A stretch of DNA of 37,884 bases from a virus: IMG/VR virus record IMGVR_UViG_3300049255_000532, positions 1 through 37,884 of that record; one strand, 5' to 3'. Position numbers and translations under genes: made by a program. Below, piece after piece: positions 1 through 13,210 of this stretch. Numbering within the stretch: the first letter of the stretch is position 1; every line of letters begins with the position of its first letter. Below the pieces are notes generated by a model. The model made no database searches and was not told the origin of the DNA. It saw only the letters and a program-made list of their open reading frames with translations.

Positions 1-516
1 CTAGCTCGCGTGCTTACTCCGTCGCCATAGCGTCGTTTTCGACGGTCCGCGCTCCCCGATCTTCGGCCCGGGTCGCTTCGCGCCGAGTTTCTTCATGCCG
101 TTGCGGATCCGCTCCGCGATCAGGCTGCGCTCGAGCTCCGCGACAGCGCCCAGGATGGTGAAGACCAGTTTTCCGTAAGGCGTCGAGGTGTCGATCGATT
201 CCGTCAGGCTCACGAAGTCGATTTTCAGCGCCTGGAATTTTTCGAGCGAGTTGACCAGGTGGCGGACCGATCGCGCGAAGCGATCGAACTTCCACACGAC
301 GATCGCTTTGAAGTCGCGCCGGCCGCGTTCCGCGTCGGCCATCATCTCGTCGAGCGCCGGCCGCGATTCCTTCGCGCCGCTCCAGCCGTGGTCGACGTAT
401 TCGTGTGTGATGTCCCAGCCGCGCGTCCGGCACATCTCGCGCAGGGGCTGGAGCTGAGCCTCCGGATCCTGGTGGCTCTGTGCCTTGGAAACGCGCGCGT
501 AGAGAGCGACCTTCAT
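1..516 (-). CDS. Small serine recombinase (resolvase/invertase family)
   Basis: A 171-residue protein of the resolvase/invertase family, which cuts and rejoins DNA through a serine-DNA bond. The N-terminal catalytic domain is clear: YARVS at residues 6-10 gives Ser10 as nucleophile, and WKFDRFARS at 75-83 carries the conserved arginines. The segment around 115-142 (GKLVFTILGAVAELERSLI, then the long helix) is the usual dimer helix. The C-terminus is odd. Family members normally end in a helix-turn-helix of about 45 residues; here only about 23 residues (149-171) follow, with GPSKTTLWRR resembling just the last helix. This is much smaller than large serine integrases, so a role in resolution or inversion is more likely than phage integration, but that is inference. 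It reads away from the plus-strand gene at 535. A GGAG lies 10 nt before the ATG. Confidence 0.9.
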   Translation of the reverse strand: MKVALYARVSKAQSHQDPEAQLQPLREMCRTRGWDITHEYVDHGWSGAKESRPALDEMMADAERGRRDFKAIVVWKFDRFARSVRHLVNSLEKFQALKIDFVSLTESIDTSTPYGKLVFTILGAVAELERSLIAERIRNGMKKLGAKRPGPKIGERGPSKTTLWRRSKHAS

Positions 517-2158: not shown

Positions 2159-2545
2159 ATGAACCGTCGATCGTTCCTCCACACAGCAGGACTGAGTGGC
2201 GCCGGCCTGGTCGCGACTGCGACGCTGGCCGAGGCCGGCGCGCTCGCTGAGTTCTTCGACTGGCTTCGCCGGCGGCCGTCGTTCTCGTTCCCTTCCGACA
2301 CGCGGTCGCCGCAGGTCGTTCCGGTGCGTCACCCTTTGCTGGAAATCGGCGATTGGATCAAGATTCCGACTCGTGGGCCGACTGTGTACAGGGTCAGCAG
2401 CCTAACGCACCGTTCCAACTGGAGGAATGACGACGAGGAGGAGATAGGCATGCAAGTCTTCGCCTCCAACGCAAACGAACGAATCGAGCTCTGGCTCCCC
2501 AGTTACTACTCTGATCCCCGTCGCAGCAGGCCTCCGGCGGCCTGA
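2159..2545 (+). CDS. Hypothetical protein with twin-arginine signal peptide
   Basis: A 128-residue protein beginning MNRRSFLHTAGLSGAGLVAT, which matches the twin-arginine (Tat) leader pattern: N-R-R-S-F-L, a mildly hydrophobic stretch, and A-E-A-G near residue 27 as a possible cleavage site. The mature part has about 100 residues, acidic in the middle (NDDEEEIG), with several aromatic residues (WLPSYYSD). No family is recognised. Tat leaders normally export folded, often cofactor-bearing proteins, so such a leader on a small phage gene is unusual. A cytoplasmic protein with a chance RR motif cannot be excluded. A likely -10 box lies directly upstream. Confidence 0.65.
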   Translation: MNRRSFLHTAGLSGAGLVATATLAEAGALAEFFDWLRRRPSFSFPSDTRSPQVVPVRHPLLEIGDWIKIPTRGPTVYRVSSLTHRSNWRNDDEEEIGMQVFASNANERIELWLPSYYSDPRRSRPPAA

Positions 2546-2586: not shown

Positions 2587-2603
2587 CCTGGGAGGTGATT
2601 CCG

Positions 2604-2993
2604 ATGGGCCGTCCGCGTCAGCAGCAGCTGCAAATCTGTTGTTCCTCGAAGTGCCTGCGCACGATCGATCCGAACGAAAAAGCGGTAGCGCTCACCATCT
2701 TCGCGCAGACGCTGGGCATGGGAAAGCGCCGCAGTTCGAAGTCGGAACGGCTTGCCCTTTGCCCGCAGTGCGCATATCGCGTCGCCGGCGTCGAGAAAGA
2801 GCCGTCGCGCACAGCGCCCTTCGACCTCGCAATTTTTAGGGTGCTGTTGGATCTCATCGGCGCCGATGGCGACGTCGCCCAGGCCAGCTGGGAATTGCTG
2901 CAGCGCCGCCGTTCGGAGATCCTCTACGCGCAGCCCGCGCTCTCTGAGGGCGAAGTGCTGCCACCGCCGCGCCGGCTGAAAGAAGCGAGCTAG
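2604..2993 (+). CDS. Hypothetical protein with two Cys pairs (zinc-ribbon-like)
   Basis: A 129-residue protein starting MGRPRQQQLQICCSSKCLRT. Cysteines near residues 11-16 and a CPQC pair near 53-56, about 40 residues apart, suggest a zinc ribbon. Helical segments follow (FDLAIFRVLLDLIG). The ATG at 2604 is chosen because it follows GGGAGGTGATT; an in-frame ATG at 2550 would run through the palindromic operator pair. The position directly behind two operator-like sites suggests it is a regulated gene, perhaps the regulator itself, but no helix-turn-helix is visible. The stop overlaps the stop of the convergent gene at 2990 within CTAG. Confidence 0.75.
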   Translation: MGRPRQQQLQICCSSKCLRTIDPNEKAVALTIFAQTLGMGKRRSSKSERLALCPQCAYRVAGVEKEPSRTAPFDLAIFRVLLDLIGADGDVAQASWELLQRRRSEILYAQPALSEGEVLPPPRRLKEAS

Positions 2994-3208: not shown

Positions 3209-3544
3209 CTACAGCTTCGCGGCCGCCGCCTTCAGCGCCGGAATTGCTGCCTGCACGTCGGCGATGAGCGCTTTGTCCAGGCTCACCGAGAGCCCGTTGG
3301 CCGAGGCCGCCGGGCCTGCGTCTTCGACCGCGGTGCAGATCGCTTCGAAGGCGGCCAGTGCTGTCATTTCGATCGCAGCGGCGCCGGGGAAGGCGAGCTG
3401 CACCAATGCTTCCACTTCGGGCGCGTCTTTTTCGACCTCGGCCGCAATGGTCGGCGCTTTCTCTGCCGCCTTCAGTACTTCCGCTTTGAAATCTTTCGCC
3501 GCCGCGACTAATTTGCTCACGACGCCTTTAAACGATGTGCTCAT
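3209..3544 (-). CDS. Alanine-rich hypothetical phage protein
   Basis: A 111-residue, almost wholly helical protein rich in Ala, Lys, Glu and Val (for example KGVVSKLVAAAKDFKAEVLK at the N-terminus). No signal peptide or membrane segment is obvious, although the middle (AIEMTALAAFEAICTAV) is apolar. It overlaps the upstream membrane protein gene by ATGA, so it belongs to the lysis-end operon. Small helical proteins in this position may be minor virion or lysis accessory proteins, but there is no evidence for either. Confidence 0.75.
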   Translation of the reverse strand: MSTSFKGVVSKLVAAAKDFKAEVLKAAEKAPTIAAEVEKDAPEVEALVQLAFPGAAAIEMTALAAFEAICTAVEDAGPAASANGLSVSLDKALIADVQAAIPALKAAAAKL

Positions 3545-3921
3545 GGTTTTTTCTCCAGTTGAGGTGCAATGGTTTCGGTGTTAGTGGCCATCTCCGCCGC
3601 GGCTTCCCAGGAAGGCAGCACGAACAGGATGCCGCGGCTGAGCGGATCTCGCCGGAATACGGCGACTATCATCAGCGCGGAAATCACGAGCCCGAGTCCG
3701 ATCGAGAATCCCCAATCGCCCGAGGGAAGGGAAGCGGGCAGGGCGCCGTCGACGGCCGTGCCGAACAAAAGCGACAAGACGTTGCCGCCGATCAGCGATC
3801 CTCCGCAGACCAGCATGAACGTCAGCACGCCACTGCCGACCATCGAGAACAGCAGGCGGATCCAGCCCTGCAGAATTTTCTTCTCGATCAGCCCGAGAAT
3901 CAGTTTTGCGATCGCGTCCAC
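3541..3921 (-). CDS. Membrane protein, two predicted helices (holin-region candidate)
   Basis: A 126-residue protein starting at GTG one base after the stop of the small membrane protein gene upstream. Two or three hydrophobic segments are visible: about 20-37 (WIRLLFSMVGSGVLTFMLVC), 38-58 and about 72-88 (FSIGLGLVISALMIVAV), followed by RRDP and a hydrophilic C-terminus. Its size, membrane character and position beside a small membrane protein and lysozyme make it a holin or lysis-regulator candidate. It does not match a holin family that I can name, so this is context-based inference. Confidence 0.75.
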   Translation of the reverse strand: MDAIAKLILGLIEKKILQGWIRLLFSMVGSGVLTFMLVCGGSLIGGNVLSLLFGTAVDGALPASLPSGDWGFSIGLGLVISALMIVAVFRRDPLSRGILFVLPSWEAAAEMATNTETIAPQLEKKP

Positions 3922-4107: not shown

Positions 4108-4557
4108 TTATTGCCAGAATCCGGTTTCGAGCTGCAGGGCGAGGCGTTCAATGCGCGCCGGCTCCTGGTGGTCGGCCGCGGAGTCGAGCAGCTCCGCCTT
4201 CGCCGTCTGCCAGTCTTTTTGCTGCAGCGCGGCCAGCATCTTGGGAAAGCCGGCGACGCCCTTCGCGCCCATATTGAAAATCAGGTTGAGCAGTGCGCCT
4301 CTGCGGACCTCGTCGAGATCCATTGCCCAGGGGAAGTTCGCTTCTAGCGCGACGATCGCATCTTGCTTGTCGTTCGCCAGCAGGAAGTCACGCTCTTTCT
4401 GCGAGAGTCCCTTCGCGCTCAGGTTGCGGCCGACGGCGACCGTCAAATTTCCCTGCAGCGTCGCGCCCTTCACTAGAGTTTTCCCGGTGGCGTCGTCGTA
4501 TGCGAATTGGCGCTCGCTCTCGTCGCGGCGCAGCTGGTCTTCGAGGCAGGTAATCAT
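4108..4557 (-). CDS. Phage lysozyme (T4-type, GH24 endolysin)
   Basis: A 149-residue muramidase that cleaves the glycan strands of peptidoglycan at the end of infection. The catalytic triad spacing of T4 lysozyme is visible: Glu13 and Asp22, nine residues apart, and Thr39 in NLTVAVGRNL. The C-terminal half follows the T4 pattern closely: RRGALLNLIFNMGAKGVAGF, then LQQKDW, and a final RIERLALQLETGFWQ. The usual His after the Thr-x-x-x-Gly stretch is Arg here, which also occurs in active relatives. There is no signal peptide, so release would depend on a holin; the two membrane genes downstream are candidates. The ATG at 4557 is chosen over upstream in-frame starts because it begins the fold. 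Confidence 0.93.
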   Translation of the reverse strand: MITCLEDQLRRDESERQFAYDDATGKTLVKGATLQGNLTVAVGRNLSAKGLSQKERDFLLANDKQDAIVALEANFPWAMDLDEVRRGALLNLIFNMGAKGVAGFPKMLAALQQKDWQTAKAELLDSAADHQEPARIERLALQLETGFWQ

Positions 4558-4563
4558 GAGAAA

Positions 4564-4815
4564 ATGCTCCGTATGGAGTTTTCGCTGGGAGATTCCGAGC
4601 GGCGCCTCACGCTCGCGGCGCCTTATTCGTCGAAAGATCAGCTGGTTTCGCTCAGCGTGTCCAGCGACGCTGAGGGTCCGCACCTGATCGATGGATTCGG
4701 GGCCGTTCCGCCAGGCGCTATCCGCATCTTCAAAAGCGACGGTATGCGTTGGCGTCGCTGCTATCTGCGCGAGGTCATCGCGCGCACTACTCGACTCCTG
4801 TCATCACGCCGGTAA
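4564..4815 (+). CDS. Plus-strand hypothetical gene inside the tail-lysis operon
   Basis: An 83-residue protein (MLRMEFSLGDSERRLTLAAP at the start) in the only gap of about 230 nt between lysozyme and the tail hub gene, reading against both. The composition (balanced charged and apolar residues, few repeats) looks like real protein, while no minus-strand frame in the gap does. A GAGA lies just upstream; a second ATG at 4573 is possible. Its last 29 nt overlap the 3' end of the tail hub gene. Function unknown. With the plus-strand genes at 6937 and 10611 it forms a set of moron-like insertions. Confidence 0.5.
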   Translation: MLRMEFSLGDSERRLTLAAPYSSKDQLVSLSVSSDAEGPHLIDGFGAVPPGAIRIFKSDGMRWRRCYLREVIARTTRLLSSRR

Positions 4816-6922
4816 TTCCATAAGGCGAGTACTCTCCAAAATTCGACGAGCTGGTCGGCGCGGTGAAGGTGTAGACCGACGGATCCGTCTGTCGGCCGAC
4901 GATGTCGACGCCGATCACGGGCGCCTGGTCCTGGCCGGCGCCGGCTTCGATCGTGATCGTCACCTGGTCCGCGAGAAAAACTGTGTCATTCATATTCCAG
5001 CGCGAGTGCACGAAGCCGAAGGTGTCGCCGGCCTCAATTTGGAATGCGGTCATCTTGCAGGCCAGCGTCACCGTCTGCTGGAAACGCAAACGCATCAGCG
5101 TGATCTTCGCCAGGCGCTGCGCGGTCCAGAGCGAGGTGGTGAAGTCGAGTTGAATGTCTTGCCAGATCACCTGCCCGCTATCTTCCGAGTTCAAGTAGTT
5201 CGGTTTTCCGGCGAGCCCGTTGGCCTGGTATGAGGGAAAGCTTTGCGTCTGCCACGCCGCCGGCACCTGCACCATGCTGAGCGCGGCGCCGGGGTTCGAC
5301 GGCAGAAACGCGGGAATGTAGCGGCCTTTGACGGAGTTCGCGACGTCGCGCTTCGAAAGCCGGAAGTCGCCTTTGATCGGGCCGCGCAGATCGTTGTCGG
5401 TCACCGTGGCCAGCGGCGTCACGTAGGCGCCGGCGAAAACGTGCCAGAGATCTCCTGGCGAAATTACCCAGCCGGCCATCGATCCGCAGAGCGAGGTGAG
5501 AACGTCGCCGCGGTTCGACGAGTGATCGAACATCCCATTGCAGGAATAAAGATTCTCGTAGACCACGGTGTTGTCGGCGTTCCAGATGATCAGCTCTTGT
5601 TCTTCGCAAACGTTGGCCGCGGCGATGACGCTCGCACTGTCGATGGTCGATGCGGCCACGCCCAGGCCTGCGTCCGCGTCCTGCAGGTAATCGTTCACCA
5701 CCAGCGCACAATTTGAAGGATTGAGGGCATGCGGCGAACGTCCCATGCACGTCCAGGTGGCCGCGTTGTCCGTGGTCGTCGAGCCCACGGCCGTCGCAAA
5801 CAGCGGATGAGCACTGCCGGTTGAGCCCGCGGTGGTGAGCAGCTGCAGGTAGCCGATCGGCGCCTCGATCACGGTCTGCAGCGCGCCCGATCCGTAGGTC
5901 GCGCCTGGCGCCCAGGTATCGTTCAGCAAAATGCCGGCGCCCAGGCTGCCCGGTGTAAACGCGAGCTGTGGCGGATTGTTCGGAAAGTTTCCCGTGAGCC
6001 AGAAAGCCAGGCCGGTGCCGGTCGAGTACCAGGTGCAGCCGCCGTCGGTCAGGGTTGTGGCCGCGGAGTCGTTGGCTTCGAAGTTGGGCCGAGTGCCTCC
6101 GCTCGAGGGGTTGCCGCTGGTCTGCTGAAACCAGACGACGCCGTGGTTATCGACGATGTAGGTGTACTGGTGGTAAGTCGTCGAGCCCTGCCAGGTGTTG
6201 ATGACGCGCGGATCGGTCAGCTTCTTTCCGGTCACCAGAAATTGAATGTTCGGAATCGAGCCGTTGGGAAAAACGTAAGGCCATCCCTGCGAAGCCGAGA
6301 GCACGACGTGCACCTTGGCGCATCCTCGCTGCATGAACGCGCTGGTCCAGCCCGAATCGACCGCACCCAGCTCAGGGAAGGCCTGCGTCGTGTTCGCTGG
6401 GTTGCCGCAGTCGAAAGTCATCTCGAGTGAGAGCCAGTAGAAATCTGAAAGCGTGCTCGAGTTCGCCGGCTTCAATACCCAGTAAGTGCCGTTCCAGATC
6501 AGGTCGCTGCCAAAGTTGTAAATCGAGCCATTGATGCAGATTGCATCGAAGCTGGAAATTTGGTGACCGGTGAGCGTGTAGACCAGGTGCAGCCGCTGCT
6601 GGTCGACGTTCTGGTTTTCTGCCGGCGGAAAGCTCGCATAGGTGAGCACTCCCGCAGTTTGGAATTGCCCGTAGATCACGCGCCGCGGCGCTGGGCCTTG
6701 ATTGAAGCTGACCTGGTTCGCCGTGCCTACTGGCTTCGTCGGCGCCGGCCGCAGTGCCACTCCGACGCCGCTCAGAGCCGTGCTGACGCCGATACCGAGC
6801 ATTGCGCTGAGCAAGGCCGCATGACCTTCGATAGCAATCAGGCCCAGCATTTGCAGGCCGGGAATTGCCGCGAGCGCCAGGCCTCCGATGATCAGGCCGA
6901 TTTCAGTGAAGGTTTTGCTCAT
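4787..6922 (-). CDS. Tail hub / tip attachment protein (J-like)
   Basis: A 711-residue protein of the central tail hub, which caps the distal tail tube and contacts the host. The N-terminus is apolar and glycine-rich (IGLIIGGLALAAIPGLQML), usual for this family. It is followed by APRRVIYGQFQTAG and HLVYTLTGHQISSFDAICIN, the typical start of phage lambda J-type proteins, and later by segments matching the tip-J core (DLWHVFAGAYVTPLATVTDN; FRLSKRDVANSVKGRY; KITLMRLRFQQTV). Two inserted modules of about 60 residues (roughly 6010-6205 and 5740-5930) resemble an insert in the head-tail connector gene. The ATG at 6922 is chosen; upstream codons are basic and low in coding character. It lacks the long C-terminal fibre part of lambda J, so receptor binding may sit elsewhere. 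Confidence 0.88.
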   Translation of the reverse strand: MSKTFTEIGLIIGGLALAAIPGLQMLGLIAIEGHAALLSAMLGIGVSTALSGVGVALRPAPTKPVGTANQVSFNQGPAPRRVIYGQFQTAGVLTYASFPPAENQNVDQQRLHLVYTLTGHQISSFDAICINGSIYNFGSDLIWNGTYWVLKPANSSTLSDFYWLSLEMTFDCGNPANTTQAFPELGAVDSGWTSAFMQRGCAKVHVVLSASQGWPYVFPNGSIPNIQFLVTGKKLTDPRVINTWQGSTTYHQYTYIVDNHGVVWFQQTSGNPSSGGTRPNFEANDSAATTLTDGGCTWYSTGTGLAFWLTGNFPNNPPQLAFTPGSLGAGILLNDTWAPGATYGSGALQTVIEAPIGYLQLLTTAGSTGSAHPLFATAVGSTTTDNAATWTCMGRSPHALNPSNCALVVNDYLQDADAGLGVAASTIDSASVIAAANVCEEQELIIWNADNTVVYENLYSCNGMFDHSSNRGDVLTSLCGSMAGWVISPGDLWHVFAGAYVTPLATVTDNDLRGPIKGDFRLSKRDVANSVKGRYIPAFLPSNPGAALSMVQVPAAWQTQSFPSYQANGLAGKPNYLNSEDSGQVIWQDIQLDFTTSLWTAQRLAKITLMRLRFQQTVTLACKMTAFQIEAGDTFGFVHSRWNMNDTVFLADQVTITIEAGAGQDQAPVIGVDIVGRQTDPSVYTFTAPTSSSNFGEYSPYGITGVMTGVE

Positions 6923-6936
6923 GAGAGAATTCGCGA

Positions 6937-7143
6937 ATGAGTCAGGCGATCGGTCCGAAAATTCCGTTTCGCTGCAGTTACGACTGCGAGCAGATGGGCT
7001 ACCCTGGTCACACCGTGCGCGAGATTTTTGATCGCAGTTCGGATTCCTATCGCTTCCAGGTCGACGAAAATCGTTTCTTCGTCTTCGACGAAAACTGTTT
7101 CGCAGCTCTGCTGAACGCGCATGAAGCCAACAAAGATCGTTAA
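6937..7143 (+). CDS. Plus-strand small hypothetical gene between tail genes
   Basis: A 68-residue protein reading against the tail operon, in the 217-nt gap between the tail hub and the Cys-peptidase-like gene. The sequence is rich in aromatic and acidic residues (REIFDRSSDSYRFQVDENRF) with a CSYDC pair at residues 13-17 and one further Cys, and it looks like a compact beta fold. GAGAG lies about 10 nt before the ATG. Its stop lies inside a palindrome shared with the stop of the convergent gene. No family is recognised. I infer a moron, but no promoter stands out. Confidence 0.6.
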   Translation: MSQAIGPKIPFRCSYDCEQMGYPGHTVREIFDRSSDSYRFQVDENRFFVFDENCFAALLNAHEANKDR

Positions 7144-7151
7144 CCGATCTT
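7133..7151. terminator. Inverted repeat at convergent stops
   Basis: AAGATCG (7133-7139) and CGATCTT (7145-7151) flank TTAAC, and both convergent genes stop within it. It may act as a weak bidirectional terminator or barrier. The stem is only 7 bp with no T-run beyond it, so rho-independent activity is doubtful. Confidence 0.35.
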
Positions 7152-7565
7152 CCAGGCGCGCTTCCAGCGATGAATGCGAACCAGCGCCAGGCCGCCCTGT
7201 GCGGCGCACGCCACGAAGCGCGCATCCAGGCTGACCACGCCGACGGCGCCCTGCGGAGTTCCGTTTTGCACCAGTACGACGTCGCCGCGCTGGGCCTGCG
7301 TCACGGGGATTTCTGGGCAGCCCAGCGCGGCCGCTTGCGTCGCGATGAAAGTCTCGAGGCTCTCGCCATAAACGGCCGCGGCGCCAGCCTCGTCAGAATA
7401 TGTTCCGCGCCACGCGGCTGCCGGATCCGCGCAGCCGGTGATGGCGCGGATGCAATCGCAGACCTGCAGCGCGCAGTCGAACGTTCCCCATTGGAAGTCG
7501 AGCCCGCGCGCGCTCTCGATCATGCGGCCGAGCCGCTCCCGCCAGTCTGGATGTCGCTTCAGCAT
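7140..7565 (-). CDS. Tail-tip Cys-peptidase-like protein (DUF6950 / NlpC-P60-like)
   Basis: A 141-residue protein in the slot where many siphophages and gene transfer agents keep a small peptidoglycan-hydrolase-like protein next to the tail hub. The N-terminal pattern HPDWRERLGRMIESA, then FQWGTFDCALQVCDCI, matches the DUF6950 family. Cys31 in FDCAL is the likely nucleophile position, and a later GDVVL with a run of short strands (VGVVSLDARFVAC) fits the NlpC/P60-like fold. A His near the C-terminus (RIHRWKRAWKIG) could be the partner, but I cannot confirm the triad. It would act on the cell wall during DNA entry if active. Confidence 0.82.
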   Translation of the reverse strand: MLKRHPDWRERLGRMIESARGLDFQWGTFDCALQVCDCIRAITGCADPAAAWRGTYSDEAGAAAVYGESLETFIATQAAALGCPEIPVTQAQRGDVVLVQNGTPQGAVGVVSLDARFVACAAQGGLALVRIHRWKRAWKIG

Positions 7566-7569
7566 TTGG

Positions 7570-8505
7570 TTACGAATGCACGATCATCGCCACCGCGGCG
7601 CGATATTGCTGCGAGGCGCCGCTGGTGCCGATGCCGATCGGCACGCGCGCGACGATGGAGCACGCGCCTGGCCCGACACCGGTGATCAGAAACGTTGAGT
7701 AAGAAAAGGTCGCGACCTTCGGATTCGTGGAACCGATCGAGAAAATGAAAGGCGGTCCGGATCCGCTGTGGCCGACGCCCAAGGTTCCCGAGTAAGTGCT
7801 TCCGTCGGAATAGTGAATTGTGGCCGTGATCGTCGATGTGCCGCCTACTGCGAGATCTGGGGAGGAGAGCGCCAGGGTCATGTAGAGCGGATAAGGCGAC
7901 GTCGTCGTCATCGGCGCGGGCCAGAAGAGCGCGCCGTTCGCCAGCCCTTCCACCATGCTGAAGCCGAGATCGCCGGGATAATAAATCTGCTGGTCCGCGT
8001 CGTCGAACTGCCGGTTCGGCGCCAGGTTCAGCGAGAGCAGCGGATTCTCGCAGGTGATCGAGATGGAGCACGTCTCGCCCGAGTCATCGAGCGTCGGCAC
8101 ATCGAGGCCTCCGGCATAGACCTGCACGGGATCGGTGAGCAGGTTGTTGTTGCCATCGAAGAGTCCGAGCCAGATGGTGGCCGTTCCAGCAATGCGGACC
8201 TGCCCGATCGCCTCTGACACCAGCGTCGCAGGAATGCCGCTCAACAGGAGCGTCATGTTTTGCGCCTGCACCTTCGTGCTCTGCGGAATCGCGGAGATCT
8301 TTCCAAGCCAACCCAGCCCGCTGAAGGTTTGCCCGTAAGGAAATGTCGATGACGGATTCGATGGCGGTCCGGCCGGCGTGATCGTCCCCAGTCCGGTGAA
8401 GAGGTAATAGGTCGCATCGGCGAATGCGAGTTCGGAGAATACGGCGAGGGTCACCGTCTTCGCAGCGATCGCCGCGACCATTGCGGTGGAAAGAGTGCGG
8501 GGCAT
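7570..8505 (-). CDS. Minor tail protein with C-terminal BIG2-like domain
   Basis: A 311-residue tail-tip protein. The first 200 residues resemble minor tail proteins of the L/DUF2163 type found between the distal tail and hub (MPRTLSTAMVAAIAAKTVTL at the start; KISAIPQSTKVQAQNMTLLL; an internal CSISITCENPLLSLNLAP). The C-terminal 90 residues form a bacterial Ig-like group 2 domain: LAVGGTSTITATIHYSDGST, then TNPKVATFS and a closing ITGVGPGACSIVARVP. Such Ig-like domains decorate virions and bind weakly to cell-surface glycans. The ATG at 8505 is chosen over a start 12 codons upstream. It lies 2 nt after the small gene upstream. Confidence 0.8.
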   Translation of the reverse strand: MPRTLSTAMVAAIAAKTVTLAVFSELAFADATYYLFTGLGTITPAGPPSNPSSTFPYGQTFSGLGWLGKISAIPQSTKVQAQNMTLLLSGIPATLVSEAIGQVRIAGTATIWLGLFDGNNNLLTDPVQVYAGGLDVPTLDDSGETCSISITCENPLLSLNLAPNRQFDDADQQIYYPGDLGFSMVEGLANGALFWPAPMTTTSPYPLYMTLALSSPDLAVGGTSTITATIHYSDGSTYSGTLGVGHSGSGPPFIFSIGSTNPKVATFSYSTFLITGVGPGACSIVARVPIGIGTSGASQQYRAAVAMIVHS

Positions 8506-8507
8506 TT

Positions 8508-8666
8508 TTATTCCAACAGTGCGGCAGCCGCCGCTTTCCACGCCGTTTTCACGACGTCAGGCAACAACGACCAGTCCAGCGGATATGGGGGGAGAAATGC
8601 GCGGGCTGATTCGCAAAACGCCCGGTAGGCCTTCGACGCTTCGGCTTCGAGTTCTTCCGGTGGCAT
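8508..8666 (-). CDS. Small tail-module protein, 52 residues
   Basis: Starts MPPEELEAEASKAYRAFCES and ends in a helix of alanines (KTAWKAAAAALLE), a compact helical protein with no recognised family. Its start overlaps the stop of the upstream minor tail gene by one base (TGATG), and its stop is 2 nt before the next start, so it is translated as part of the tail operon. Conserved position in a tight operon is the main evidence; the role is unknown. Confidence 0.7.
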   Translation of the reverse strand: MPPEELEAEASKAYRAFCESARAFLPPYPLDWSLLPDVVKTAWKAAAAALLE

Positions 8667-9469
8667 CACAACGCTTCTTTCGCTTTGAAGCTGATCTTGT
8701 AAATCTTGTCTTTGTCGACCTTCCACGTCGGCCGGTTGTCGAGCAGGCGGAAGGTTCCGGCCGTGTTCGCCGTGACGATCGCGTTGCCGTCGGCGATCGT
8801 CTCGCGGATGTTCGGAAAAATCGTCAGCGCCACGTTGCCGGCTACTGTGCTCGAGGCGTTCTGCACGACTTTGTAAAGCCGTTGCGGATTTCCTGAGACC
8901 GTGACCTGCACGTAGTCGCCGGCGACGGCCCAGTTCGTGATGCTCGCGGTCGCACCGCGCAGGTTCAGCGTGTTCGAGCCGTTCAGGTTGTTTCCCGAAA
9001 CGACCGGCGCTCCGCTCCACGGGCCTTGCGGCGAAGGCCGCAGGTAATCGCCCATCAGAAACGTTCCGTACTTGCCATAGAGCGACGCCAGAAACGAGAT
9101 CCACTGCTCCGCCTGGGCGAGTGTGAGCGGTGGCAGGTCGACCTCGAGTTCGAAGCGCTGGCCTTGCCACTGTTGCTCCTGCTGGCTGTAGGTAAAAGGC
9201 GATTCGGTTTCGCCGACGACGTTGGCCATCGTCATGGAAAAATCTTGCGGACCGATGCCCGCGATCGCCGGCGCTGAGATGGGGTAGTTAATTCCCAAGA
9301 GTGGACTCGTGACTGAAATCTGCAGAACTTCCTGCGTTGACTCCACGCCGGCGACGGCCGTCGGCACGACTGCGGAGATTTCGAGAACTTCCTGCGTCGA
9401 CTGCACGGCGCCGGAATTCTGCGCCGAGATCTCGAGAACTTCCTGCGTGGACTGCAGGCCCGTTGCCAT
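8666..9469 (-). CDS. Minor/distal tail protein with N-terminal STQEV repeats
   Basis: A 267-residue tail protein. The N-terminus has three near-identical copies of QSTQEVLEIS spaced by 9-12 residues (residues about 7-53); similar short threonine-glutamine-valine repeats open several siphophage structural proteins. The middle matches a known tail protein pattern (FSMTMANVVGETESPFT, then QQWQGQRFELEVDLPPLT and FLASLYGKYGTFLMGD). The C-terminus alternates short strands and ends with KDKIYKISFKAKEAL. Located between a lectin-like virion protein and the BIG2 minor tail protein, it is probably part of the distal tail ring. No enzyme motif is present. Confidence 0.8.
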   Translation of the reverse strand: MATGLQSTQEVLEISAQNSGAVQSTQEVLEISAVVPTAVAGVESTQEVLQISVTSPLLGINYPISAPAIAGIGPQDFSMTMANVVGETESPFTYSQQEQQWQGQRFELEVDLPPLTLAQAEQWISFLASLYGKYGTFLMGDYLRPSPQGPWSGAPVVSGNNLNGSNTLNLRGATASITNWAVAGDYVQVTVSGNPQRLYKVVQNASSTVAGNVALTIFPNIRETIADGNAIVTANTAGTFRLLDNRPTWKVDKDKIYKISFKAKEAL

Positions 9470-10524
9470 CAGCTCGCCTCATAAATACTCATGGTCGCGG
9501 CGTCGGCGCCTGCAGCCAGCCAGGCTGCAGAAGTGTTCGGGTCGATCGAACTGAAAACGTCGAAGTAGGCAAAGCTCGAGGGCACGGTGACCGCGGTGCC
9601 CAGCTGGTCGGTGCTGCCGGAACGCACGCCCGCCTGGAAGGTGTGCGCGGATGCGTCGTTCTTCGCGATGCGCGAGCGGCGCACCAGGCCGTTCACTGTT
9701 CCGGTGAAGCCGGCCGCGCCCACCGCGTAGTTGTCTTCGACCATCGTGGTGGAAGAAACGTAGCTGGTGTTGTCGTCGGGTGGCACTTCGTCGACGCACT
9801 GCCAATTCGCCGAGGCTCCATTCGGAGTCCAGTTGGTGAGGGCGCCGGCGCCGGTCGGCAGCTTCGTATAGATTCGTGAGCCTTCGCCGAGAATTGCGTT
9901 CGGCGCGGATCCGCCGGCGTCGTGCGCGTGGAAGTCGTCCCAGCGCGTAGGCGTGCTCGCATTGTTGAAGTCGCCGATGCCGACCTGGTTCGCGTAAGCG
10001 TTTCCGGAGGCGCTGGTGTTCACGCTGCTCACGGTCAACACCGCGGGGCCGCCCTTCGGCGTGCTCAGGTAGACCGAGAAGCTTCCGCCAGTGCCGGTGG
10101 CGATCACCGCGATGAAGTCGATAAAGAACCAGGTGTTCAGCGTGATCAGGCCGGGCGAGGTTGCGCCCAGTAGCGTGCCTGTAAAGGCCTTGCCGCGCCA
10201 CACCTGCAGCGCGCCCGCGCTGGTCACAGCCAGCGCGAGTTGAATGGTGCCGGCATCGTAAAACTGAATGTAGCCAGCTTCGCCGCCGGCCACAAAGGCC
10301 TCGAGAAAGAATGCGGTCGAAACAATCGGCGAGGCCACGTTGCTCGAGTAGTTCTTGATTTTGTAGCAGGCGCTGGGGATACGGCAGCCTTGACCGACGC
10401 AGTGCGCAGCCGCGGCGAAGCGCGCATAGGCAGTGCTGTACTGCAGCGTGCCGGAGATGGTGTCCCAGCGCTCGCCGGTGGTGGTGTAGTGGTCGAATCC
10501 GTCCCAGATTCCGGAATAGGACAT
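9469..10524 (-). CDS. Virion protein with concanavalin-A-like fold (predicted)
   Basis: A 351-residue structural protein beginning MSYSGIWDGFDHYTTTGERW. The first 200 residues alternate strands (IQFYDAGTIQLALAVTSAGA; FFIDFIAVIATGTGGSFSVY), and FIDFIAVI with a following VYLST is usual for jelly-roll lectin-like phage proteins. The C-terminal half has another beta-rich unit with NGLVRRSRIAKNDAS. Proteins with this order occur in tail-tip regions of several environmental phages and are probably exposed, sugar-binding decorations. The ATG follows GGAAAGACCCCA. It abuts the plus-strand moron across an 86-nt divergent gap. Confidence 0.75.
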   Translation of the reverse strand: MSYSGIWDGFDHYTTTGERWDTISGTLQYSTAYARFAAAAHCVGQGCRIPSACYKIKNYSSNVASPIVSTAFFLEAFVAGGEAGYIQFYDAGTIQLALAVTSAGALQVWRGKAFTGTLLGATSPGLITLNTWFFIDFIAVIATGTGGSFSVYLSTPKGGPAVLTVSSVNTSASGNAYANQVGIGDFNNASTPTRWDDFHAHDAGGSAPNAILGEGSRIYTKLPTGAGALTNWTPNGASANWQCVDEVPPDDNTSYVSSTTMVEDNYAVGAAGFTGTVNGLVRRSRIAKNDASAHTFQAGVRSGSTDQLGTAVTVPSSFAYFDVFSSIDPNTSAAWLAAGADAATMSIYEAS

Positions 10525-10557
10525 TGGGGTCTTTCCTCTCTGGCCTAGTTGGGCCGC

Positions 10558-10586
10558 TTGTCAGAAGGGTTGGTGCGTGGCATCAT
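10558..10586 (+). promoter_or_regulatory. Candidate sigma-70-type promoter of the moron gene
   Basis: TTGTCA (10558-10563), 17 nt, then CATCAT (10581-10586), giving a start near 10593, just upstream of GGAGGT at 10597-10602. It lies in the 86-nt divergent gap between the lectin-like gene and the plus-strand gene at 10611. Match to the -35 is good; to the -10, four of six. Confidence 0.45.
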
Positions 10587-10610
10587 CCACGGCGTCGGAG
10601 GTACTTCGTC

Positions 10611-11000
10611 ATGATTGTGAAATTCAGCGACGTCTTCGCTATTACGGCGAAGGTTCTGGGCGCCCTAATTCTCATCGGAGTGATCGCCGCCCTCGCCATC
10701 GGAGGAGCGCTCCTCGCCATCGGAGGGTTGGGAGACATTCTTCAAAATCACAAAGGCAGCACTGTTTCCGCTTCCGCTAACACCACTGAGGTTGAGAACA
10801 CCCCATCCGCGGATCAATTGACGGCCGCCACCGCCGTTCGACAGATGAAAAGCGAAATCAGCGTCTGCAAGGGTGACGTAATCTGGCCTGAGAGTGCTGA
10901 CGCAAAGCGGTGCATCGGCAAGGCCGTCAGTAAATGCCGATCTACAAAATTGAGCGACGCCGCCAACCAATATCTTCTCGAGGGAAGCTGCATCCACTAA
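10611..11000 (+). CDS. Membrane-anchored hypothetical protein (moron-like)
   Basis: A 129-residue protein reading against the tail operon. Residues about 9-44 are a long apolar stretch (VFAITAKVLGALILIGVIAA and onward) forming one or two membrane helices. The remaining 85 residues are hydrophilic and carry four cysteines (VCKGD, RCIG, KCRS, SCIH), which could pair as disulfides if the domain faces the periplasm. The ATG follows GGAGGT by 8 nt and has its own candidate promoter. Isolated, membrane-anchored and antisense to a structural operon, it fits the moron pattern, and genes of that kind often alter the host surface or block superinfection. That role is inference; no family is recognised. 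Its 3' end overlaps the tape measure stop by 4 nt. Confidence 0.75.
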   Translation: MIVKFSDVFAITAKVLGALILIGVIAALAIGGALLAIGGLGDILQNHKGSTVSASANTTEVENTPSADQLTAATAVRQMKSEISVCKGDVIWPESADAKRCIGKAVSKCRSTKLSDAANQYLLEGSCIH

Positions 11001-13210
11001 CGTCCCAGACTGCGCTTGCGAATCTCTGCAACTTGAACGGCCGCGTTCATGATGAGCCGAGGCGCTGCAAAAGAAAGCGCTCTCGCGATTTTCTCTTCGA
11101 CTCCGATCTCCGCTCCCTTCGCATCGATGTGAATGCCTCCCATGTTCATCGACATTCCCCCCAGCGCCTTGTTCGGAGTGATCGATGAACCGGACGGTAC
11201 ATTCATCAATTCAGGGCCATCCTCTCCCACCCATGAAAGGCCGCCGGCCCAGTTGTCGGTTCCCGCAGCGTTCCCTGGGATCGAGCCCGCCCCGCTATCG
11301 CTGAGATCCCCAATTACTCCGCCGCCGCCGCCGCTCGCGCTCGATGTGGCCAGCTCCGTCGCCGCAGCCTGGAGTTCGGTGGCGGCGCTGGTCAGCAGTG
11401 TGCCGGCCGAGGTCAGCGTCGTGCCCGCCGATGTGAGCGTCGCCGCGCCTCCAGCTCCGCCTTGTCCACCGAAGAGGCCACCGATGCCGAGCGATTTAAC
11501 TCCGGCCGCGATTTCCTTGTTCAGCAAAAACTTCAGCGCCTGGTCAGTGAGCCCTTCGAAGTACTGGCGCCACGCGGTTTTCCCGCCGGTGATCGCCTTC
11601 ACGGTTTCATCTTCGAAGCCCTGCAAGCCTTTGTTCAGAAATTCGAATGTAAACTTGCCGCCCTGGCCGGCCTCAGTCTGCAACTGCAGGAAGAAGGCCT
11701 GGAGGCCGGCGTTCACGTCGCCGGTTTTCTCGAGGAGTTTGTTGAGCTGGTCTGTCGTCTTCGCAGCTTCTTCTTTCGCTTTGGCCAGTGCCGCATTGTA
11801 GGCAACGCGATCGATCAGATTTTCTTTCACCAGTAAGTCGAGCTCTTTTTCAGTGAGCTGCAGTTTCTGCGCGGGCGTGATGATGTCGTCGTAAGCTTTC
11901 GCGGCCAGCTTCAATTGCGCTGTCTGGTCGGCGGAGAACACCGAGAACTGCGCGCCGGTTGTGCCGCCTGCGGCCTTGTCAAACTGCGCGCCAGTGCTCG
12001 AAGGCGGCAGTGACGGCGGCGTGACTGGAAGGGAAAGCTTTGTGGGCAGATCTTTCTGTGCGGCCAGCACGTCGGCGTCTGCTTTGGCCTTCGCCAGTAT
12101 CCTGTCGAGATTCGACTCGTAATCGCTGAGATGCTTCGCCGCCGCGGCGAGCGACAACTCGGTGTTCGCGGTCTTGCCCATTTCGAAGAAGTCGGCCTGC
12201 GCCTTCACCTTCATCGTGTCGATCTCGATCGTCAGCTTCTTGATCGGGTCAGCGACCGGATCGAGCTTCTTCATCGAGTCGGCAATGTCTTTGTAGAACT
12301 CAGCCAGGGCCTTCGCGGCTTCGGCCTGAGTTTTCAGCGCCTCTTGGTTGCGGACGCCCTGCTGGGTGTAGTTCTGCACATCCTGGAGTCGCTGCAGACC
12401 TTCGGCATATTGGTTAAGCGCTTTCGAGGTGTCGTCGAATCCCGAACCAGGCTCATACCACTTGTGATCGCTCGCGGTCTTCGCGAACTTCGTCGCTTCG
12501 TCATTCGCTCGATGGATCTCATCCGCGAGCATTTTAGAAGCGTGCGCCGTGCCATCGATCGAATCTTTCAGCGCGGCGACGTTGTACTTAGAAATCAGTT
12601 CCGAGAAATTGCTGCTGATCTGCTGCAGGTTCAGCGTGCTCTGGAACGAGCTGACCTTCTGAACGAAAGTCCCAATGGCGGCCAGAGATCCGTTCAGGAC
12701 TCCGGCTGCGTCACGCGAGGCCTGAGCCTGTTTCTGTTCAGCTTCAGCGAGACGGTCGACGGCAGCAGTTGCCGCGGTGATCGCTTTGTCTTTCGTCGCA
12801 TAGGCTGACATCTCCTGCTCGAAAACAGAGCTGACGCTCTCGGTGGCAACCTTCAGCGCCTCTTGCGCCTTCTGTGCTTTCTCGATCGACTTCGCAATCT
12901 TGTCGAAGAACTCAAAGCCAGCCACGGCGAGCGCGCCGACGACGCCGGCGCCCAGAATCGACTGCAGGCCGGTCGCCAGGGCAGGGAACTCCTGCGTCAG
13001 GATTCGGGTGAGCGGCCGGCTGAGGTGAATGCCGAGCGCTTCATCGATGAGGCGCAGAGACTCCGCGCCTTCGCGCGAGCTGCGCTTCATCGACGCCGAC
13101 ATGCCGAGCGTCTGCTCGTTCACCAGGCGGAAAGCTTCGGGCGCGCCCTTCTCGAGCGCGCTGAGGTCGTAGCCCAGACCGACGAGAATCGTTGCGAGGT
13201 TAGTGGCCAT
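10997..13210 (-). CDS. Tail tape measure protein
   Basis: A 737-residue protein that sets tail length and helps DNA entry. The position after the chaperone and tail completion genes, the large size and the composition are typical: long heptad-like helices rich in Ala, Lys, Glu and Gln through residues 100-500, an apolar segment near 83-103 (SILGAGVVGALAVAGFEFFD), and a glycine-rich part near 580-660 followed by the short C-terminal helix. The N-terminus (MATNLATILVGLGYDLSALE) is common in tape measures of this type. At 737 codons the helical ruler would predict a tail of roughly 110 nm using the rule of about 0.15 nm per residue; this is an estimate. It overlaps the upstream 40-codon gene by 11 nt. 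Confidence 0.88.
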   Translation of the reverse strand: MATNLATILVGLGYDLSALEKGAPEAFRLVNEQTLGMSASMKRSSREGAESLRLIDEALGIHLSRPLTRILTQEFPALATGLQSILGAGVVGALAVAGFEFFDKIAKSIEKAQKAQEALKVATESVSSVFEQEMSAYATKDKAITAATAAVDRLAEAEQKQAQASRDAAGVLNGSLAAIGTFVQKVSSFQSTLNLQQISSNFSELISKYNVAALKDSIDGTAHASKMLADEIHRANDEATKFAKTASDHKWYEPGSGFDDTSKALNQYAEGLQRLQDVQNYTQQGVRNQEALKTQAEAAKALAEFYKDIADSMKKLDPVADPIKKLTIEIDTMKVKAQADFFEMGKTANTELSLAAAAKHLSDYESNLDRILAKAKADADVLAAQKDLPTKLSLPVTPPSLPPSSTGAQFDKAAGGTTGAQFSVFSADQTAQLKLAAKAYDDIITPAQKLQLTEKELDLLVKENLIDRVAYNAALAKAKEEAAKTTDQLNKLLEKTGDVNAGLQAFFLQLQTEAGQGGKFTFEFLNKGLQGFEDETVKAITGGKTAWRQYFEGLTDQALKFLLNKEIAAGVKSLGIGGLFGGQGGAGGAATLTSAGTTLTSAGTLLTSAATELQAAATELATSSASGGGGGVIGDLSDSGAGSIPGNAAGTDNWAGGLSWVGEDGPELMNVPSGSSITPNKALGGMSMNMGGIHIDAKGAEIGVEEKIARALSFAAPRLIMNAAVQVAEIRKRSLGR

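Follow-up and report, generated by a model that had tools for sequence, protein, structure and literature searches.

A conserved promoter at a probable cargo slot beside the tape-measure-like gene of an uncultured phage group

The window, by which we mean the whole stretch of 37,884 nt analysed here, contains a small plus-strand gene, S3, that is best explained, on balance, as the present occupant of a promoter-bearing cargo slot beside the tape-measure-like gene, and possibly as an exclusion moron. From comparison of related sequences, the existence of a slot with a conserved promoter is very probable, and S3 is probably a moron that the lysogen expresses; that S3 acts in superinfection exclusion is a more tentative proposal, made by analogy.

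Three opposite-strand genes within the tail operon

The first-pass annotation had singled out S3 and two further small genes, S1 and S2, as the only plus-strand genes between 3 and 38 kb, each lying in a gap between tail genes, and had proposed that all three are morons. The ORF map, read from the sequence, places them as described: S1 (4564–4815) encodes a soluble protein of 83 aa, S2 (6937–7143) an orphan of 68 aa with three cysteines and S3 (10611–11000) a protein of 129 aa; each fills a gap flanked by minus-strand genes, and the map alone accords with there being no other plus-strand gene in this range. S1 occupies the 229 nt between the genes, both on the minus strand, for a phage lysozyme (endolysin; 4108–4557; PF00959 and phrog_7) and a J-like tail tip protein of 711 aa (4787–6922; phrog_5616, E = 8e-42), and S2 the 217 nt between the latter and a DUF6950 (NlpC/P60-like) tail gene (7140–7565, minus strand; PF22262, E = 7e-34). 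The 472 nt that house S3 are bounded by a tail-operon gene for 351 aa (9469–10524, minus strand; phrog_2448), also present in relatives, and by the tape-measure-like gene (10997–13210, minus strand), which is assigned from weak matches to PHROG 1716 and Tape_meas_lam_C, from its position and length, and is likewise kept in relatives. The 3' ends of S1, S2 and S3 overlap the adjoining minus-strand gene by 29, 4 and 4 nt, respectively.

When each gap was shuffled 5000 times under a first-order Markov model, a plus-strand ORF of such length arose in 0.14% (S1), 0.74% (S2) and 2.2% (S3) of the shuffles. For all three, the codon score of the gene's own frame tops all six, yet it lies below those of the tail genes, and it is weak evidence by itself, because, among 130 plus-strand ORFs spanning 60 aa or more, 4 exceed 0.1. 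GC content is 61% for S1, 51% for S2 and 55% for S3, against 61.6% for the window. Consistent with the claim that none has a recognisable family, searches of Pfam, PHROGs, NCBIfam and PADLOC brought up nothing significant, and no homologue was found in cultured phages. All three are real features, but unequal ones, with S3 the strongest.

For S1 and S2, the moron proposal holds in part. The nearest relative, L004, lacks both gaps, with 13 nt at the S2 site and −1 nt at the S1 site. S1 has a homologue in L008 (42% identity over 60 aa, E = 8e-11), encoded on the opposite strand in another gap, that between the DUF6950 gene and the J gene; a profile of this pair recovered the L008 contig again and no others, and two 15-residue matches in the viral scan (L002 and L003) were treated as chance. 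Insertion of S1 is thereby supported, but its independent expression is not: consensus and PWM scans found no promoter-like site, of the types that they cover, upstream of either S1 or S2, and the idea that the two share the slot promoter was rejected. S2 is likewise absent from L004, is low in GC and is improbable as an ORF, and no homologue was found in the viral scan. Judged from sequence, S1 and S2 would be additional small insertions between tail genes, carried as accessory cargo, S2 being an orphan whose status as a real gene is plausible but unproven. There is perhaps a one-in-three case for the opposing view, that the S2 frame, and perhaps that of S1, arose by chance in inserted non-coding DNA: S2 has neither a homologue in the scans made nor the slot promoter, and its antisense frame is nearly as good (codon score 0.029 versus 0.073). 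For S1, however, the protein-level homologue speaks against this view, and it sits uneasily with the rarity of ORFs of these lengths in shuffled gaps and with the low GC content and near-exact fit to the gap of S2.

The slot and its promoter

Among 21 records with both edges of the slot mapped, the window included, 17 are occupied and four are empty (L029, L032, L034 and L037). Every occupied slot has one or more ORFs on the opposite strand; in L035 and the window, these were seen by reading the sequence directly. The promoter ahead of S3 (10558–10586, plus strand) has the sequence reported in the first-pass annotation, TTGTCA (10558–10563) and CATCAT (10581–10586) separated by 17 nt, and the spacer ends in TGG (10578–10580) immediately before CATCAT; the strong ribosome-binding site that had also been reported is GGAGGT at 10597–10602 (plus strand, read directly), 8 nt ahead of the ATG.

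With a PWM built from the relatives, the S3 promoter scores 25.1, the runner-up in the window 8.8 and the best chance match in 40 shuffles of the window 20.3. Under leave-one-out scoring, 15 of the 17 occupied records, and none of the four empty ones, have the top match of their whole locus at the slot (15.1–31.4 bits); the weakest of these matches (L010, L021, L023 and L027) are not significant alone given the shuffle maximum, and L035 and L036 have no PWM match at their slots, although these are occupied. When loci from different cargo families are compared, the −35 element is 71% identical and the extended −10 79%, against 36% for the spacer and 30% for the DNA downstream, as counted over 14 loci (L010, L027, L036, L035 and L085 were excluded as diverged, differently spaced, without a match or absent from the table). 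The consensus is of the sigma-70 type (TTGAC-N, a 17-nt spacer ending in TGG, then (C/A)ATCAT) and points against the tail operon. A scan with the promoter pattern returned 44 stretches, five of them from this phage group, including one new contig (L085) with cargo A+B; the remaining 39 had no tail or cargo genes by tblastn, and chance matches are to be expected, since the pattern comprises 15 fixed bases. Adjoining the −35 element is an imperfect inverted repeat, GGCC-tagttg-GGCC (10542–10555), better kept as GGCCCGTTCGGGCC in L016, which is a possible operator.

A moron of the lambdoid type is marked by being an extra gene between genes adjacent in relatives, with a promoter and a terminator of its own and a base composition that departs from its surroundings (compare the GC values above), and it would be expressed from the prophage and dispensable for lytic growth. 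For S3, the first mark is seen in the four empty slots and the second, as conserved sequence, in the 15 occupied slots with a promoter; a consensus scan of the plus strand found no terminator-like site near 11000, nor near 4815 or 7143 for S1 and S2. The moron proposal is supported for S3 by much more than the first-pass annotation had adduced, inasmuch as the promoter is kept at the slot in relatives with unrelated downstream genes and the cargo genes combine freely. Either a tyrosine integrase or a small serine recombinase was found in 10 of the 11 records searched, so a temperate lifestyle is plausible; an HTH_3 repressor above the cut-off was found in none of 11 records, and a search of genome_contigs for integrated (prophage) relatives through the J and dit proteins, with two peptide patterns per scan, gave none. 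The conserved promoter would fire while the tail operon is silent, and the slot cargo would then be a moron serving the lysogen.

Alternatively, the promoter could exert antisense control, its transcript reading into the tape-measure gene from the 3' side so as to repress or tune the tail operon, with the proteins secondary. S3 and the tape-measure gene do converge and overlap, and their junction is without a detected terminator-like site. We nevertheless consider this very improbable: purifying selection acts on the cargo genes (pN/pS 0.22–0.55), their products carry signal or membrane segments, and the four empty slots imply that an antisense unit is dispensable.

Cargo proteins and their possible role

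The opposite-strand ORFs of the occupied slots come from at least six sequence families, and almost all of them encode a signal peptide or a membrane helix; of at least eight cargo protein families named, a single one has a Pfam match above the cut-off. First and second cargo genes occur as A+B, A+D, C+B and C+D, and therefore cargo is exchanged; a relationship between families A and C was rejected on profile comparison (probability 1.1%). Neither family A, family C nor the L015 cargo has a homologue in cultured phages, and a family C profile recovered the five known contigs from viral_contigs and nothing more. The model of family C (pLDDT 74.6) has a helix-grip fold (95 residues align to 2laf with Z = 11.9 and rmsd 2.6) and lies near the BamC N-terminal domain (Foldseek E = 2e-4); the fold is common, the top VIA match being a plant protein. 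The L010 cargo is an FkbM-type methyltransferase, a poor fit to a direct injection block.

In S3 itself, the four cysteines previously noted are present, and the membrane anchor previously noted is predicted from a hydrophobic N-terminus (hydropathy maximum 2.92 at residue 16; helix 5–48), followed by a C-terminal domain containing Cys86, Cys101, Cys109 and Cys127. The N-terminus is common to the L015 cargo (E = 8e-5; 9.4e-7 in a second search), the viral-contig scan gave no match, and no significant match to known exclusion proteins was seen in Pfam, PHROGs, NCBIfam, PADLOC or PDB; the S3 model is poor (pLDDT 69, pTM 0.36). We infer that S3 may be anchored in the inner membrane, its Cys-bearing domain facing the periplasm, and might there block DNA entry of incoming siphophages via the tape measure or its host partner, as is reported for HK97 gp15 and TP-J34 Ltp. 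Its likeliest function would be to exclude other phages as their DNA enters, perhaps by way of the tape measure, and the swapped genes for small membrane or secreted proteins probably alter or protect the phage-carrying bacterium.

A less probable reading accepts the moron slot but has the cargo altering the host envelope or fitness, through lysogenic conversion, receptor masking or outer-membrane assembly, and not blocking injection. It is favoured by the likeness of family C to BamC, by a sub-threshold BamE match of the L015 cargo (17.8 bits; cut-off 23.2) and by the methyltransferase in the L010 slot; the helix-grip fold, however, reveals no function, and the position next to the tape-measure gene is left unexplained. 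That the cargo works in the lytic cycle, as a lysis helper, spanin-like protein or assembly factor, is unlikely. The arrangement of an N-terminal membrane helix and a Cys-bearing domain in S3 would suit it, as would a spanin-like PHROG match of the L036 cargo, which is at chance level (E = 0.53), but S3 opposes the late operon, has its own promoter and is distant from the lysis genes (4108–4557 and 3541–3921).

The slot and known systems

Word searches of an open-access library found no description of the slot, which does not prove its absence. It is conceivable, if doubtful, that it represents a dedicated, undescribed cassette slot, in which envelope cargos of one or two genes are exchanged within an uncultured phage group as a fast-changing exclusion repertoire matched to the adjoining tape measure. 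Morons are mostly recognised singly; here, the slot itself is visible by sequence comparison, with the promoter kept, the cargo replaced and two-gene cassettes reassorted in four ways. The cargo families are candidate envelope-acting exclusion factors, and, since they adjoin the tape-measure gene, the notion that an exclusion factor is linked to its target can be tested directly.

The defence hotspots of P2-like prophages have a fixed place in the genome and exchangeable cargo genes. The tape-measure slot resembles them in its fixed site and swappable cargo, but its cargo is envelope-directed, lies beside the tape measure on the other strand from the tail operon and stands behind one conserved promoter. 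HK97 gp15 is an extra gene among the tail genes and was reportedly described as a superinfection-exclusion moron by Cumby et al. in 2012. Like S3, it is small, comes from a siphophage and is predicted to lie in the inner membrane; unlike it, S3 is encoded on the opposite strand in a slot hosting many families, and no sequence match between them emerged from the libraries searched. Both HK97 gp15 and Ltp are described as membrane proteins that act in exclusion and that phages escape through an altered tape measure (PMC10883804). TP-J34 Ltp is portrayed as a secreted, membrane-tethered exclusion lipoprotein that targets the tape measure (PMC10883804, PMC3952083); on that account, it shares tether and target with our proposal for S3 but belongs to a Gram-positive host, and the sequences are unrelated as far as searched. 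The exclusion genes described in PMC9936078 sit in a regulatory region and not in the tail operon. Finally, SNIPE is described as an inner-membrane defence that encounters the tape measure as DNA is injected (PMC13190303), as proposed for S3, but it is a nuclease with DUF4041 and is not phage cargo of the slot described here.

Conserved promoter and swapped cargo in the tape-measure slot

The interval between the tape-measure gene (10997..13210, minus strand) and the tail gene at 9469..10524 (minus strand), hereafter the slot, combines a conserved promoter with swapped envelope-directed cargo (opposite-strand genes), and is a larger finding than the individual ORFs, including its occupant in the window, S3 (10611-11000, plus strand). 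It lies in a virus record 37,884 bases long, whose minus strand bears a siphophage-type gene set: HNH endonuclease, terminase, portal, protease, capsid, connector, tape measure, tail genes, lysozyme and small serine recombinase. No close relatives of the tail genes were found among 50,697 phage records. Scans with the J-like tail tip protein (J; 4787..6922, minus strand) yielded 12, and later 79, distinct viral loci, 34 of which (L004-L037) were analysed together with the window; J identity to the window is mostly 53-75%, and lower in a few. Both slot edges were mapped in 21 records: the gap measures 378-1360 nt in 17, every one of which contains an opposite-strand ORF, and -43 to 32 nt in the other four.

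The same promoter element lies upstream of unrelated cargo genes. In the window, it comprises TTGTCA (10558-10563), a 17-nt spacer and CATCAT (10581-10586); using a matrix from 12 relatives (picked by eye, window left out), this site scores 25.1, the next-best site in the window 8.8, and the best sites of 40 shuffles 11.6 on average (maximum 20.3). With leave-one-out matrices, the top site of the locus falls in the slot for 15 of 17 occupied records, counting the window; the occupied slots of L035 and L036 fail this test, a similar element with longer spacing being discernible by eye in L036. None of the four empty slots has the element, and a scan using nothing but the promoter pattern recovered a new group member, L085. 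Across loci with different cargo (14 loci), the hexamers agree at 71% and 79%, as against 36% for the spacer and 30% for the downstream DNA; because of this disparity, the conservation pattern is, on sequence, that expected of a functional promoter and not of a shared DNA stretch. The start codon follows the -10 hexamer by only 8-11 nt in 9 of 16 loci (window not counted), which suggests leaderless messages there; S3, unlike these, has a ribosome-binding site. Additionally, an inverted repeat at 10542-10555, also seen in several relatives (GGCCCGTTCGGGCC in L016), abuts the -35 hexamer and could be an operator.

Composition of the cargo

The first gene belongs to family A in L004, L006, L007, L008, L024, L026, the later-found L085 and, truncated, L009, and to family C in L011, L016, L020, L021 and L027; elsewhere it is an FkbM methyltransferase (L010), membrane protein E (L023), H (L036), an unassigned membrane ORF (L035), a protein designated by its locus (L015) or S3. 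The second gene is B in L006, L007, L008, L020 and L085, D in L026 and L027, and E in L010. The pairings A+B, A+D, C+B and C+D all occur, which requires exchange of parts. Pairs within cargo families have pN/pS values of 0.22-0.55 and are therefore real proteins, and nearly all first genes, the methyltransferase excepted, begin with a hydrophobic segment. Profile comparison gave no relationship between families A and C. The predicted structure of family C (pLDDT 74.6) resembles helix-grip domains, among them the BamC N-terminal domain (Z 11.9, rmsd 2.6, 95 residues); the L015 cargo gives a sub-threshold match to BamE. Family B also occurs outside the slot, close to the serine recombinase of L021 (15799-16008, minus strand).

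Small opposite-strand ORFs

S3 and the two further plus-strand ORFs of the first-pass annotation, S1 (4564-4815) and S2 (6937-7143), were all found where it had placed them, filling sense-strand gaps of 472, 229 and 217 nt, respectively; as it also held, they belong to no recognisable family, having no significant match in family libraries. ORFs as long are seldom seen in gap shuffles (S1, 0.14%; S2, 0.74%; S3, 2.2%), and the codon score of each is highest in its own frame among six, and below that of the tail genes. The annotation's reading of all three as morons (independently expressed extra genes in a silent operon) is supported for S3, in part for S1 and weakly for S2; a matrix scan found no slot promoter at S1 or S2. 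The single homologue of S1 (42% over 60 aa, E 8e-11), in L008, runs opposite to the tail genes in the gap corresponding to that of S2, and the S1 family therefore moves between gaps. A search for homologues of S2 found none; the equivalent gap in L023 holds an opposite-strand DUF7693 protein, and L004, the nearest relative of the window, lacks both S1 and S2. The N-terminal anchor of S3 is common to the L015 cargo (E 8e-5; 9.4e-7 in a second comparison), the remainder being different; the weak model of S3 (pLDDT 69, pTM 0.36) predicts a long helix at the N-terminus, followed by three shorter ones in the Cys-bearing part.

Other opposite-strand ORFs were also observed. A Cys-rich gene at 2595-2993 (plus strand; no Pfam or PHROG match) is kept in 11 of 34 relatives, each time against the tail genes, and an orphan ORF at 2159-2545 (plus strand) has a twin-arginine-like N-terminus. 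In four relatives, a second conserved family (67 aa, 60-63% identical) is located downstream of J (L008, 12526-12729; matches in L005, L015 and L023). Homologous ORFs in L029 (9869-10243) and L034 (12130-12501) overlap with an ORF of the tail strand that is conserved and zinc-ribbon-like; one or the other may be spurious.

Possible lysogeny and function

A tyrosine integrase is present in 4 of 11 records searched and a small serine recombinase in six others (window included), the two together in none; a search for an integrated relative found none. The recombinase of the window (1-516, minus strand) is 98% identical in protein sequence to that of L004, as compared with 49-84% for other shared genes, reflecting either recent exchange or strong constraint.

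The cargo would be transcribed independently of the late operon, and hence would be used in a lysogen, lysogeny itself being putative. S3 would presumably reside in the inner membrane with a periplasmic Cys domain. The main rival explanation is that the cargo has a different envelope function. Our preferred reading, that siphophages may be excluded at DNA entry, leans on the slot position beside the tape-measure gene and, by analogy, on HK97 gp15 and TP-J34 Ltp, membrane proteins whose block, according to PMC10883804, is escaped through the tape measure.
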